Of a stretch of 10,513 nucleotides of DNA, positions 5,115-10,513 are shown one piece after another. The translations under genes were made by a program, and so were the position numbers. Source of the stretch: Blastocladiella britannica (lineage: Eukaryota > Blastocladiomycota > Blastocladiomycetes > Blastocladiales > Blastocladiaceae); the NCBI GenBank assembly GCA_025349905.2, contig MU625154.1, positions 1 to 10,513 on the forward strand. Direction: 5' to 3'. Position 1 is the stretch's first letter. Every line of letters begins with the position of its first letter. Under the pieces are notes generated by a model, which had not been told where the DNA came from, did not search any database, and saw only the letters and a list, made by a program, of their open reading frames with translations.

Positions 5115-8100
5115 TCAAGCACGGGCACCCGTGGCCCCGACCCGCAGATCCAGCATCGAGCTCATGAGCAAGTCAAACACTGCCTCGACGCTCGGGATCG
5201 CGTGCGCGGGCGCCTCCAGCACCGCGGGTACACCTGCCTCGATGCCCCCGCGTCCCCGCAACAGCTCGTCTTGCTGCGTCGTGGTCTTCGATGGTGCATT
5301 TTCGGCCGCAGTGGGAGCGACCACCGGCTTGCGAATGAAAATGGAGGTCCGCGGTGCCACGGCCGTCACAATCGATGGCCCAGCGGCAGTGACGGCCGCC
5401 GTAGCGACTGCAGTGCCCTTGGCTGCGGGAGTAGCCGACAGCACCGCCAGCTTGTTGGACCGCGTCAGGTACACGAGCTGCGATGCCGAGCCCACGGCGT
5501 CCGCATCAGCGGCATTGCTACCGCCGCTCGGAATGAACGCCATTGACAGGATATCCTCGGGCACGGTCCGCACCGAAAGCGGCACGGGAGACGTGGCCGA
5601 CAGTAGCGTCAGCATCGATTTTGCCCCCTCGGCGGCAGCATCTGCGGCAGCAGCAGCAGCGGCATCCGATGCGGGGTCCACGTCCATGGCATTCGAAACG
5701 GTCTGGCCCGATGTGATGGGAACCGAGGCAGCCGCAGCAGCCGCAGCTGCCAACGATCCGGTATCAACCTGCGTCATGTCCTGGGTGACAATGGCGATCT
5801 GGTCGCGGCGCGGGCACACGGCGGCGCACCGCAGCAAGTGGCCCTTGGGCACCACCCAGCTCCAGGCAATGGCCAGCGTGAGCAGGTCAAACACCGTGAC
5901 ATGGCCGGGAGCCACTGCCACCAGGAGCGGGCAGTTGCCGGACGCAAACGTGACTGAGGCCACGGGCTTGGGCGCCACTAGCGTGCCTACGTGTGCGACC
6001 GTGGCCGGGTCCCACAGCGTCACCAGTGGACCAAACGCCACTGCCAGAAGCGACCCGTCTGCCGCCCACGCGACCGCACACGGGTTCTGCGCCCGGAAGT
6101 AACCCGATGACCGGCACCGCCACTGGTCAATGGTGGTGCCCAACCGCACATCGCGCCGGGTCGCACCGGCGCCGACGGGTACCGCGACCACCTCCCACAC
6201 CGAGAACGTGCCATCATCTTGGGTCGTGGCCAGCATCGGCGCCACCTCTCCCCGGCGACTGCCGCTACCGCCGTTTTGCGCACTGTTGGATGGGCGGAAC
6301 GACAGGCCCGAAATGCGCGGGAGAGCGTCCACGCGCGAGTTGAGCTCGTACCGGCCGTCCATGGCTGAGTACTCCCACAGTCGCAGCGTGCATCCTCGGT
6401 GCACCAGCTGCGCGTTCGGCCGCTCGTCCACGGTGGCCATCCACCGGCCCGACTCGTCAAACGCCAGCCGCGTCACCTGCGGGATCGCGACGCGGTTTCC
6501 CGCGACTGAGTTGTAAGGGACCACCACCAGGTCCGTGACGTGGCAATCCGAGTACGAGTCGTAGAACTGAACCATGCCCGGGCTGCCCTCGAGCGCAATG
6601 TAGCCCGTCCGCGGCTCCACCGTGAGCACGCTCGGGAGCGACCCCGCGTGCGCTCCGTGACCGGACTGCAAAAGTCCATCGATCCCCAGAGCGCCGCCAA
6701 AACGCAGCTCGTCCTCTTCCGACGACGAAACGTAGTTTCCGCCCACAAACGACGGCGCAGGCGATCCGGCGTCGGTTGCCGCGGCAAGAGCGCTGGCGCC
6801 GTGCTGTGGGACGGCGGCGGCAGCCGAGGAAATGGCGGCTAATTCATGCAATGTTCAGATATAGTTCCAATCGCCAAGTAAAAGTAAGGGATCTGTCGTA
6901 CTCGACTTGAGGCCAACAACGCTCTGCTGCACGGCAAGCGTGCTGGCAAGAATGATCCGAATGGCATTGTCCAGCAACCCTACCGCAAACTGGGTCGCGT
7001 CCGGGCTCACGCCAATGCCCAAGATAGGACTACCGAGCTGCGAGTTGAACTGCTTCTGGCCCGTCTCCAAGTGCCAAATCACCAACACGCCTTCGTCGCC
7101 ACCACTGATCATGTGGCGGCCATCCTGCGTGAACGTAAAGTGGTTGACGCCGCGCGCGTGCCAGTGGAAGGAGCGCACTACCGGGTCCTTGGGCGATTGT
7201 CCGGGCGGAAACCCGAGCACCGACCACACCTTGATCTTGCCCGACTCGTCGCCCGTGGCCACCACCGAGTCAAGCGGGTGCGCCGCCACCGTGGTCATTT
7301 TGCGGTCGTTCATGTACTGAGCCCAGGAGAATTGCAGCTGCGCGCCCTCGTCCGGTTTCGTGCGGACCGTTTGCTGGACACTGGCGTCATTGTTCTCGGT
7401 GCCATTGGTGGAAGCAGTCGCAGTCGCAGCAGGTTGGCTGCGCGCATCGTCCACAATGGTACCAATGTGCAGCTTGAAGCGCGCGGCCAGAACCACCGAT
7501 CGCGCGTCCTGCGAAACGTCAAAGGCCGAGCAGTATCGGGCCTTGAGCAGACGCGTAATGGTGTTGGACGAGAGATCCAGCAGCAGCAACACCGAGTTGA
7601 GCTTCTCGGCCGCACGGCCCGACGATTTGGTGACCACCACAAACGCCAAGTGCGGCTGTTTTGGGTGGATGCGGAAGTGCGAAATGGGCGTGCCGAGCTT
7701 CCAGACCTGTTGTTTTTCATGTTGGTATTTACTGCCCCGAGATTTTGGATGTATCAATGAGTACCTTGAGAAGCGCGCCATCGTTGATATCCCACAGACG
7801 AATGGAACCGTCAACCGACGCCGAGTACGTCTGCAGCGGGTTGCGCGGCGACAGGGCCACGGCGGTGATGTTGGCAGTGTGCGATTGCAGGTGGTCGGGC
7901 GGCGAGATGACGCGGATCTGCTGGTTGGTGCGCACGCTGTACAGCTTGATCGACGACGAGGCAATGCACAAAAAGTGCGCGCTATCGGCCGTGAACAGTG
8001 GTGGGTGCGCCGAGAGCTGCCCACCAACCACGCGCGACAGCGTCAAGTGCTGCTGCTGCTGTTGCTGTGGAAGCGCATCGGACGTGGTGGCTGGGGAGCT

Positions 8101-8263: not shown

Positions 8264-8327
8264 ATGGGCCGTGACCGGTTGCCACCAAATCTTCCGGATC
8301 GAAACCCGCGCTTCACAAAAGGGGAAT

Positions 8328-8379
8328 CCCGCGCGCGGGGTTGTCACCACGTCGGTCTAGAGCACGAGGGCTGCTCTAG
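8328..8379. repeat. Palindrome and hairpin near the 5' end of the transposase remnant
   Basis: Positions 8328-8339 form a perfect 12-bp palindrome CCCGCGCGCGGG. Shortly after it, CTAGAGCA (8357-8364) and TGCTCTAG (8372-8379) form a perfect 8-bp stem with a 7-nt loop. Both lie before the recognisable HTH region, so they may belong to the element's subterminal, noncoding DNA rather than to coding sequence. No role is shown. Confidence 0.5.
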
Positions 8380-9090
8380 GTCATCGCTCCACCAACACGA
8401 CAACTTGTTCGGACACGCGTCGATAAATCGTCGCACCACCGAAATTGATGTATCGCGTCCTGCCGCACCAGCGACCCCCCGCCGCATTTCCGCGCGACCG
8501 GCGTCTACTTCACCCTCGCCCAACCCCAAACGACGTCGCACGCGCTTTTCCGGCAAGGAGATCGCTTTTGCCGTGGTGAAATACCTTGAGTTAAAGAACA
8601 ACAACTTGCGCATCTCGATCAAAACGGCCGCCGAGGATATCGTTCTCGAGAGCGGTGCGCATGTGTCTGCGTCTTCTCTGCAACGCTGGGTTTCCGACGC
8701 AGAGAAGGGTCTGCTTGGTCAAGAGCACTCGCGATCGCTCCTTGGTAAAGCCATTGAAACTACCCTCTCCAACTGGATCATTGAGTTGTCTGCTGGCCGA
8801 AACATCCCCGTGTCTGGCATGATGATTCAGGTCCAAGCCCGCAAGCTGCAAACGAAGATGGTGCACGAGATGGAGGAGTGTCACCTCCCAGCCCCTCAAA
8901 AATTGGCCGATTTTTCGGTGTCCAACGGTTGGTTATATGGGTTCTTGCACCGCAGTGGCATACATTCGTATACTCTGCATGGTACATGGCTCCTTGGGTC
9001 AATACACGTCAATTATGCTAACTTTCCTTTATTGTTTTTTTTTTAATTTAAGGCGAGGCGGGCGCGATTCCTGAGGAAGAGCAGGTTGTG

Positions 9091-9192
9091 TGACGATCAG
9101 CCGATGTCACAGGTACAGCGTTGGGGAAACGCTGTTTGTTTATATAGTGGCACTCGCGATGAGACCAACCTCTCTGGTTCTCCATCGCGAGT
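9091..9192. repeat. Three consecutive hairpins inside the transposase's second inferred intron
   Basis: Hairpin 1 (9091-9109): TGAC-G-ATC pairs with GATGTCA around loop AGCC, with one bulge. Hairpin 2 (9116-9134): CAGCGTT pairs with AACGCTG around a 5-nt loop. Hairpin 3 (9152-9192): a 16-nt left arm ending in GAGACCA pairs with an 18-nt right arm starting TGGTTCTC, with two single-base bulges and a 7-nt loop; its outer 9 bp (CTCGCGATG/CATCGCGAG) are perfect. The block is noncoding in the transposase frame because of the TGA at 9091. It could be a structured RNA, a nested element or binding sites. Confidence 0.6.
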
Positions 9193-9691
9193 CAAGTGTT
9201 TGGCAAGCATATATATTCTCTAAATCCTTCCATGGACCGCAGTGTCCCTCCAGCAGTCGTTACAGGTTGCACTTCGCGAGCTGATCCAATCCCTTGTCAG
9301 AAACGTCCCAGTCATGGACCTATACAACTTGGATGAGACCGGATTGTTCCCGCTGACCGTCCCATGGCGGACGTATGCTGGAGCGCGCCTGCATGGAGGC
9401 CGCACCTCAAAGGAACGAGTCACCACAGTTCCAATCGTCAACGTTGTTGGGGACAAGCTCCCAATGATCGTTGTTGGGAAACTGGTGGCACCACAGGCGG
9501 TCCAAAAGGGTGGCCGTGATTGATGGATGGAGCTGAAGACTAAGTGCACGTACTACTCGCGACCGTCCGCATGGGTTGACCAAGTCATCTTCAACGAATA
9601 TTTGGTGTCGCTCAATGACCAGATGCGTCGCGCGAAACGCAAGATCACACTACTCGTGGACAATTGTCGTGGCGCTAGGTATTTGGTGTGA

Positions 9692-9779
9692 GTGGAGCAT
9701 AATGGGGGCTAGATCTGGTGAGGACATGTGAGTATTGTCTCCTATACCTCACCTCTCGTTCCCCAAGCAGCAGGTTTAT
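9692..9779. other. Short spacer between transposase remnant and convergent small ORF
   Basis: I see no gene here. The plus strand could contain a third transposase intron, with donor GTATTT at 9679 and acceptor AAGCAG at 9770, but the sequence after that acceptor does not give recognisable transposase. On the minus strand the region begins the 3' untranslated part of the small ORF ending at 9780. Confidence 0.35.
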
Positions 9780-9780
9780 T
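9775..9780 (-). terminator. AATAAA signal overlapping the stop of the 97-aa ORF
   Basis: The minus strand reads ATG-TAA-ATAAACC, so an AATAAA hexamer overlaps the last base of the stop codon. This is a usable poly(A) signal position only if the 3' untranslated region is very short. It mildly supports the ORF being a transcribed unit. Confidence 0.35.
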
Positions 9781-10073
9781 TACATTGAATATAACCAAGG
9801 CCCGGCCCATTCCCGCTGCTCGACCTTCCCTATAAATTCTACATTGCTGTAGACGTGTGCAATCTGAGCCGCAGAGCAAGTAAAAGGGCGAGTATTATTG
9901 AGCCCCTCGCCACGGACAAGATAATCCAAGGCCGAGGCCAGAGCAGCGTCGTGGGTTGACTTGGCCTGGAGATCGTGGTGGTTATTGCCAAGGGTTAGCC
10001 AGAGGACGAGTGTGTGTTCCTCCTCAGCAGAAAGCCCTTCGCCTGCAGAGGTCGATTTTGATTGGCGCGACAT
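9780..10073 (-). CDS. Orphan 97-aa ORF between the transposase remnant and the Fanzor-like gene
   Basis: A single-exon ORF of 97 residues starts at the ATG at 10071-10073. I do not recognise it. It begins with a Ser-rich basic segment (MSRQSKSTSAGEG), then a helix-like stretch LSAEEEHTLVLWLTLGNNH that loosely recalls Myb/SANT-like first helices, a second helix-like part (THDAALASALDYLV) and a C-terminal AQIAHVYSNVEFIG segment. No signal peptide, membrane segment or Cys motif is seen. Composition is not the Gly/Ala/Ser-rich type of the host genes on the left. A TATAAATA box lies about 100 nt upstream and an AATAAA touches the stop, which argues for a real transcription unit. It is oriented like the Fanzor-like gene, 187 bp downstream of its stop, so it may be a passenger of the same mobile element or a DNA-binding accessory. 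It could also be the first exon of a broken gene or a chance ORF. Confidence 0.45.
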   Translation of the reverse strand: MSRQSKSTSAGEGLSAEEEHTLVLWLTLGNNHHDLQAKSTHDAALASALDYLVRGEGLNNTRPFTCSAAQIAHVYSNVEFIGKVEQREWAGPWLYSM

Positions 10074-10260
10074 GTCGATTCAAGTATAGCCAAGGTATGA
10101 GGTACGAGGACAGTGCCAGATAAGTCCAGGTTTTAGGTTTTGAAATGGGTGGCCCAAAAAAAAAAATGCGTTATATTTATATTTTCCCACACTCAGCTAG
10201 GCACAAACCCCTAATAATCGGATACTCGGCTCCGTCTGGGCCACTATTCCCGTCATCTAC
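10074..10260 (-). other. Noncoding 187 bp downstream of the Fanzor-like stop; candidate guide RNA and element-end region
   Basis: No ORF in either strand is convincing here. In the TnpB and Fanzor families the omega RNA is made from sequence overlapping or just downstream of the nuclease gene's 3' end and finishes at the element end. By that rule this is the place to look. What is seen is an 11-nt A run (10156-10166), a minus-strand TATAAATA, and a GC-rich patch 10215-10250 able to form only short stems (for example CGGA/TCCG). I found no strong long hairpin by eye, so the omega RNA assignment is inference from position alone. Confidence 0.25.
10174..10181 (-). promoter_or_regulatory. TATA box upstream of the 97-aa ORF
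   Basis: The minus strand reads AAAATATAAATATAACG, giving a TATAAATA match about 100 nt upstream of the ATG at 10073. It lies within a locally AT-rich patch between GC-rich sequence, followed on the same strand by an 11-nt T run. Single short match, no transcription start evidence. Confidence 0.4.
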
Positions 10261-10513
10261 TCATGCACGGTTATAGGCCGGGAGCTCGACTTGGTTGTTG
10301 TGCAAGACCCGGTGGGCCTTGGCAGAGATGTTAGCGACGGCGAGAGCATCACGGTTCCACCACTGGCTCTTGCAGTTAATGCTGGGGCAGCGCAGCAAGT
10401 GGTGTACCTCGCGATACTCGTGTTCGCCGTCGCCGGCGTGGTGGGGGTGGTGTACAGGGACGCGCGGGTGCACGACCGGTCCATGACACGTCGGGCACAG
10501 GCTCGAGGTCCTG
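10261..10513 (-). CDS. C-terminal end of a Fanzor-type protein (eukaryotic TnpB relative), partial at right edge
   Basis: The last 83 residues are visible (codons 10512-10261, stop TGA at 10263-10261); the rest lies outside the window. Near the edge the frame reads TSSLCPTCHGPVV, then HHLLRCPSINCKSQWWNRDALAVANI, and ends QVELPAYNRA. This fits the published Fanzor C-terminal pattern: two Thr/Ser, two residues, a four-cysteine zinc ribbon (Cys codons 10497-10495, 10488-10486, 10389-10387 and 10374-10372), then Arg-Asp of RuvC-III (Asp codon 10350-10348) and an Asn-Ile helix. Fanzor proteins are RuvC-like RNA-guided DNA endonucleases carried by eukaryotic mobile elements and related to bacterial IS605/IS607 TnpB. 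The His-rich loop between the cysteine pairs (HHPHH) is an extra feature. The zinc and catalytic residues in the visible part are intact. The alternative is another C4 zinc-ribbon RuvC-fold protein such as a TnpB of foreign origin. No start, RuvC-I or RuvC-II can be checked. Confidence 0.75.
   Translation of the reverse strand, partial: RTSSLCPTCHGPVVHPRVPVHHPHHAGDGEHEYREVHHLLRCPSINCKSQWWNRDALAVANISAKAHRVLHNNQVELPAYNRA

Follow-up and report, generated by a model that had tools for sequence, protein, structure and literature searches.

At the right edge of a Blastocladiella britannica contig (MU625154.1), a minus-strand reading frame runs off the assembled sequence, and the question is whether it closes a working RNA-guided nuclease gene or belongs to an element that no longer carries one. 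The window, i.e., the whole stretch of 10,513 nucleotides analyzed here, is contig C600 in the 15.26 Mb, 624-contig genome of this blastoclad fungus. The first-pass annotation had placed a probable Fanzor C-terminus at this edge, with its visible Asp and all four cysteines intact, had assigned the family from known family patterns, and had left nuclease activity as a conjecture. The features discussed below are collected in Table 1.

The coding tail at the contig edge

The minus-strand frame 10512-10261 translates as RTSSLCPTC...RCPSINCKSQWWNRDALAVANI...PAYNRA*, with RCPSINC KSQWWNRDALAVANI following the opening motif, and is stop-free until the TGA at 10263-10261. The frame starting at 10513 contains stops. 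Because the frame 10512-10261 is open to the contig edge, the gene extends off the window. The cysteines form a C-x2-C pair (C6/C9) and a C-x4-C pair (C42/C47). The latter also appears in both the GtFz1 and SpuFz1 alignments of the window tail, and the former in the SpuFz1 alignment of the tail and in the GtFz1 alignment of the C40 ORF, a longer relative described below. The third RuvC residue, the sole catalytic residue visible in the window, is Asp in the tail and Asn in GtFz1. The published Fanzor signature is [TS][TS]-x-x-C4 zinc finger-X(5,50)-RD (PMC3627910), and the tail fits it with T2 S3 S4 L5 C6, C9, C42, C47, six residues, and then R54 D55. Thus, a Fanzor C-terminus does lie at the right edge, where the frame is open and every motif element named in the first-pass annotation is present, and the four cysteines and D55 stand in an uninterrupted frame, as had been claimed. 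The RuvC-I Asp and the RuvC-II Glu of the window copy lie beyond the contig edge. In the sibling copy C15, the RuvC-II Glu directly precedes the tail (NEFRTSS), and it is also found in the end of C270 and in C40 and C4. Over 82 shared codons, a single codon indel and a single silent change separate the window from C15, and the window and C366 differ over 81 codons by seven replacement and four silent differences; the comparison with C366 does not indicate strong purifying selection.

Table 1. Positions of the features of the Fanzor-derived element in the window.
Feature	Positions	Strand	Basis
Fanzor1-type protein, C-terminal 83 residues (TNB zinc ribbon and RuvC-III)	10261..10512	-	Translation; genome and PDB matches
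Four zinc-ribbon cysteines	10372..10497	-	C6 10497-10495, C9 10488-10486, C42 10389-10387, C47 10374-10372; counted on the translation
RuvC-III Asp (WWNRD), D55, the Asp of "RD"	10348..10350	-	Equivalent of SpuFz1 D606 and GtFz1 N658 (alignments; residue roles, PMC11423790)
Hairpin GCCAAGGCC-nnn-CGGGTCTTG within the coding tail, putative 5' segment of the omegaRNA	10303..10323	-	Codon constancy, junctions
Conserved 85-nt 3' region between stop and right end, proposed omegaRNA scaffold	10176..10260	-	Comparison of copies
Core motif CCCARACGRNGN6ATCCGA	10218..10240	-	Genome-wide pattern search
Element right terminus GGGAAAATATAAA	10176..10188	-	17 copies have the terminus or a close variant and diverge beyond it
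Predicted guide (15 nt of right flank adjoining the element)	10161..10175	-	Inference; length from SpuFz1 (PMC10432273)

Family assignment and full-length relatives

A search of its own genome gave 40 matches to the tail, distributed over 39 contigs (E<=0.001, itself included). Among solved structures, eight sequences were found at E<=10, and the top two were the Fanzor1 proteins GtFz1 (E 0.021) and SpuFz1 (E 0.15), matches that appear weak over 83 aa only. The 40 genomic matches, together with Fanzor1 proteins as the two best structures, indicate that the tail is not a chance frame. The best Pfam family was Cas12f1-like_TNB (PF07282), below its cut-off (E 0.051, 14.2 vs 26.3 bits), and the match to this family was also below cut-off in the four relatives scanned.

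The family was settled with two longer relatives, C40 and C4, whose tails are 70 and 65% identical to that of the window, respectively. Against the PDB, the C40 ORF (597 aa, main exon) matched GtFz1 (6e-22), SpuFz1 (2.1e-10), and PpFz1 (3.9e-10), and the C4 ORF (585 aa) matched the same proteins (2e-19, 1.9e-6, and 1.7e-8). Both match GtFz1 in three stretches, from before RuvC-I through the TNB domain. All their confident PDB matches are Fanzor1, and no TnpB or Fanzor2 structure was found at E<=1. C40 and C4 carry all three RuvC residues, i.e., DPGK of RuvC-I, the Glu preceding RTSS, and the NRD Asp. In C40 these are D258 (DPGK), E492 (NEFRTSS), and D558 (WNRD), with 236 residues between D258 and T495 (pattern D-X(125,275)-[TS][TS]). 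E492 aligns with E541 of SpuFz1 and D558 with D606 (counted with the chain offset); the roles of the SpuFz1 residues D383/E541/D606 are described in PMC11423790. The family call of the first-pass annotation is therefore confirmed through these relatives, and the lack of RuvC-I and RuvC-II upstream, which it had named as a refutation, was checked on C4 and C40, where both motifs are present. In both, a further exon, in another frame, seems to lie upstream of the main exon.

The C40 ORF is deposited in NCBI as BC828DRAFT_436528 of B. britannica. Protein database searches with this ORF and with an alignment each returned a single protein among the best 8000 candidates scored, the C40 gene itself. 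In the search for viral relatives, 26 stretches fitted the patterns and none was confirmed. The structure predicted for P0001 (the NCBI model of the C40 protein), aligned with the window tail, had a mean pLDDT of 30.5, a pTM of 0.21, and no residue at 70 or above; as two aligned sequences are too few, it speaks neither for nor against the assignment. Fanzor1 was listed in 2013 in the related blastoclad Allomyces (PMC3627910). Our literature search found no paper pairing Fanzor with Blastocladiella, although a listing is possible in supplementary tables, which were outside the search.

Right end and independent insertions

A search with window positions 10513-9701 (minus strand) showed that most of the closest copies stop matching at query positions 338-343, which places the right end of the element at 10176. 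The right-end search gave 20 matches, and three short ones (36-44 nt) were left out. The other 17 copies share this end and constitute family A, the subfamily of the window. By comparing 40 nt on either side of the end without gaps in the 17 copies, the mean identity was 68% inside and 26% outside, and the best pair of flanks outside reached 50%. The first flanking base was T in 11 copies and G in 6. Shared right ends with distinct flanks mean that the insertions were independent, and the window tail is part of a mobile element with a defined right end. In family B (L018, L016, L027, L028, L046, and L054), the right ends have an A-run of variable length, after which the flanks diverge.

The comparison of copies revealed neither a left end nor inverted repeats nor a target duplication. 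An inverse of the 13-nt right terminus (<=2 substitutions) was absent upstream of all 17 copies, within up to 2.6 kb each and less than 400 nt in seven. A shared start of C224 and C306 was considered as a left end and rejected because C274 matches C224 further upstream.

Mobility of shortened forms

One internal deletion is common to five copies (C374, C561, C107, C167, and C274), the right flanks of which differ, so the deleted form has itself been copied and moved. Three others (C76, C359, and C184) retain only about the last 157-189 nt. The family-B copies that were read (C46, C526, and C266) share another junction, located at the same codon, where the tail is fused to a sequence that recurs about 0.67 kb downstream of the Fanzor stop of C40; we cannot say whether it marks a deletion or a composite element. 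The copies were found with queries that were 3' ends, and the retention of this end is therefore partly built in. When the 5' portion of family A served as the query in turn, 23 matches were obtained, including one copy (C254) for which the 1.5 kb read downstream contained no family-A 3' end, and the view that truncation always proceeds from the 5' side was then dropped. The three 3'-only copies against one 5' copy are too few for an asymmetry. The family-A 5' part had no match to Fanzor profiles. A piece of about 70 nt within family A (L040:785-854) also occurs apart from Fanzor tails on C17, C4, C40, and C117.

Catalytic state of family A

Profiles were searched on ten family-A loci (nine of the 17 right-end copies plus C270) and on ten loci of other families. 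The other eight right-end copies (the window, C15, C374, C561, C107, C167, C123, and C395) have little readable upstream sequence and stand outside the RuvC-I count. The N-terminal/RuvC-I profile detected none of the ten family-A loci; it detects C4, C40, C525, C272, and C453. The RuvC-II/lid profile was found in six of ten family-A loci (C224, C270, C306, C366, C45, and C92) and in seven of ten others. Hence, among loci with a RuvC-II part, RuvC-I was present in 0/6 of family A vs 5/7 of the other families. In the six family-A loci with a RuvC-II part, the readable sequence upstream of that part exceeds 1.1 kb, compared with about 0.33 kb from D258 to the start of the matching region in C40. 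Furthermore, the N-terminal half of the C40 protein gave 11 matches on nine contigs, which include neither C270 nor any of the 17 contigs of family A. One of the nine, C119, carries at its contig edge a tail that is more distant (71% identity at the DNA level).

The end of C270 carries 24 bases identical to the first 24 of the window (minus strand). C15 also has them and agrees with C270 for 31 bases further upstream before differing. C270 is frameshifted before its RuvC-II part and lacks RuvC-I; as a guess, it may be the other half of the window copy. Judged from these copies, family A looks non-autonomous. A working nuclease at the window locus, the activity about which the first-pass annotation could only conjecture, is thus not borne out, given RuvC-I in 0/6 subfamily copies and a frameshift in the contig end that fits the edge. 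For the window copy this is an inference, because the gene cannot be read past 10513.

The proposed omegaRNA

The conserved 3' region between the stop and the right end is 85 nt long, similar in length to the SpuFz1 scaffold of 75 nt (PMC10432273). It contains a core motif for which a genome-wide search (<=1 mismatch) gave 28 hits (24 exact and 4 with one mismatch), and the reversed-pattern control gave one. Twenty-seven of the 28 sites lie at Fanzor 3' ends. The remaining one-mismatch site, L062 (C377:4207-4229), lies in 500 bases without similarity to nine Fanzor loci or the C40 protein, and it could be there by chance, since the control also gave one. The core occurs with the same 6-nt spacing in families A (17 copies) and B (8 copies), in C4, and in C40, where the coordinates place it inside the end of the ORF. 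It is likely, judging from this conservation, that the 85-nt region with its core is an omegaRNA scaffold with a guide from 10175; the guide of SpuFz1 is 14-15 nt long (PMC10432273).

There was no match in Rfam. Folding was not clearly better than that of shuffled sequences, with z of -0.27, -2.31, and -1.93 for three lengths, -0.46 for family B, and -0.67 for C4. RNA covariation gave no support (term 0.01, changes on both sides in 1/41 pairs), and it was dropped as proof of an RNA fold because the variation is too small for that.

A hairpin nested in the coding tail is a candidate for the 5' part of the RNA. Five of its six constant residues use a single codon in all eight family representatives. 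In five sequences, codons were identical in 5/6 hairpin columns vs 4/27 other constant columns (Fisher p 0.003, post hoc), and in four sequences in 5/6 vs 21/83 (p 0.008); with two sequences p was 0.11. As the hairpin had been noticed before counting, the count is suggestive only. Within family A, GTT replaces GTC in 4/16 copies, which keeps a G-U pair, and one copy has a 1-nt deletion. The deletion junction of C306 and the starts of similarity in C76 and C359 fall 0-12 nt 5' of the hairpin, which begins 20 codons before the stop of the window. The omegaRNA of GtFz1 overlaps 17 codons (PMC10432273).

Other features of the window

Next to the element lies a Tc5/pogo-like transposase remnant (8264-9523, plus strand), with an HTH_Tnp_Tc5 match (1.3e-10) in ORF 8264-9046. 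This ORF has six genome matches including itself; the other five are short and contain a stop. The piece at 9242-9523 (plus strand) reads LYNLDETG and has no Pfam match; it is presumably part of the transposase. Capture of the tail by this transposase was rejected because the other 16 family-A copies diverge at the right end and none has the window flank. A dispersed repeat at 9727-9843 has 13 further matches among those listed. Two of them form an inverted pair about 0.3 kb apart on C137, so the repeat is perhaps the end of another short DNA transposon. A WDR75-like protein gene occupies 5115-8027 (minus strand) in two ORFs for the first and second beta-propeller, presumably split by an intron.

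Interpretation

We hypothesize that the window edge is the 3' end of a Fanzor1-derived, non-autonomous, ghost-like element of family A that keeps its omegaRNA end, which on the sequence comparisons we judge to be, on balance, the probable explanation. The 3' region would be transcribed as omegaRNA, starting either at the hairpin (10323) or at the stop and running through the right end at 10176 into the flank, so the last 14-15 nt would be a guide from 10175 matching the empty donor site. Family A would have lost RuvC-I and everything N-terminal to it, and its omegaRNA would be used by full-length Fanzor1 made elsewhere, of the C40 and C4 types. These proteins would cut the sister site and so favor retention of the element. 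Against the ghost-like reading, the upstream part of the window copy is outside the contig, repeats missing from the assembly may contain a complete family-A copy, and eight of the 17 copies stand outside the RuvC-I count. The lack of covariation, folding not clearly better than that of shuffles, the absence of a left end and inverted repeats, the use of 3' ends as queries, and the codon differences from C366 weigh on the same side. More tentatively, as possible rather than probable, the omegaRNA may start inside the Fanzor coding tail (10323-10303). With the nuclease lost, the minimal mobile unit would then be a stub encoding the C-terminus, and the shortened families would have multiplied in trans, each insertion taking its guide from its own right flank and relying on a small number of full-length Fanzor1 genes with the same RNA core.

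Three other explanations were weighed. An inert fossil, i.e., a decayed Fanzor tail without RNA product or role, whose 3' conservation reflects recent common origin, would account for the absence of covariation and for the family-A copies with readable upstream sequence being deleted, truncated, or frameshifted. It is nevertheless unlikely, because the 3' core is common to families whose tails are 64-70% identical to that of the window (C283, C4, and C40), one deleted form has multiplied, and the silent sites of the hairpin are, post hoc, unusually constant between families. Slightly less likely still is a complete Fanzor1 gene that is autonomous, has its own omegaRNA, and is interrupted solely because the assembly broke at a repeat. 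In its favor, the frame is undamaged as far as it is visible, with its four cysteines and Asp, C15 is nearly identical, and several contigs end within Fanzor copies, so an intact copy could be unassembled. However, this reading is at odds with the absence of RuvC-I in the six family-A copies that have the RuvC-II part, with the N-terminal-half matches of C40 that miss every family-A contig and C270, and with the frameshift in C270. An unrelated zinc-ribbon protein could explain why the TNB family of Pfam stays below cut-off in the tail and four relatives, but the matches of C40 and C4 include three Fanzor1 proteins of solved structure, extending in GtFz1 from before RuvC-I to TNB, and this reading, hardly credible to us, is in practice already refuted by those structure matches.

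Comparison with known systems

The closest known proteins are Fanzor1 of Guillardia theta (GtFz1, 9cer), Spizellomyces punctatus (SpuFz1, 8gkh), and Parasitella parasitica (PpFz1, 9cf0), to which C40 and C4 correspond in sequence and catalytic residues. Further likenesses are the C-x2-C/C-x4-C ribbon, the multi-copy mobile element, and the conserved 3' region past the stop. They differ from the window, which shows the tail only, from family A, which seems to be without RuvC-I, and from C4 and C40 in the apparent additional exon upstream of the main one. The motif order and the proposed omegaRNA at the right end are also those of TnpB of IS200/IS605 and IS607 (PMC3627910 and general background), but TnpB is prokaryotic, and C40 and C4 match Fanzor1 structures and no TnpB structure at E<=1. 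In S. punctatus, 134 ghost loci with omegaRNA and no ORF are described, and ghost omegaRNAs work with SpuFz1 (PMC10432273). Family A resembles these Spu-1 ghosts in that a right end with an omegaRNA-like region has multiplied without a usable nuclease gene, as seen in C76, C359, C184, and the five-copy deletion. Spu-1 ghosts carry inverted repeats of 30 nt and are devoid of an ORF, whereas family A retains part of the C-terminal coding sequence, and its copies showed no inverted repeat. The Fanzor class, including ghosts and their use by SpuFz1, is already published (PMC10432273). B. britannica adds a blastoclad fungus with 40 Fanzor-tail matches and a readable omegaRNA-like core common to several families, in which pairs of full-length protein and ghost RNA are at hand for testing the movement of ghosts in trans.
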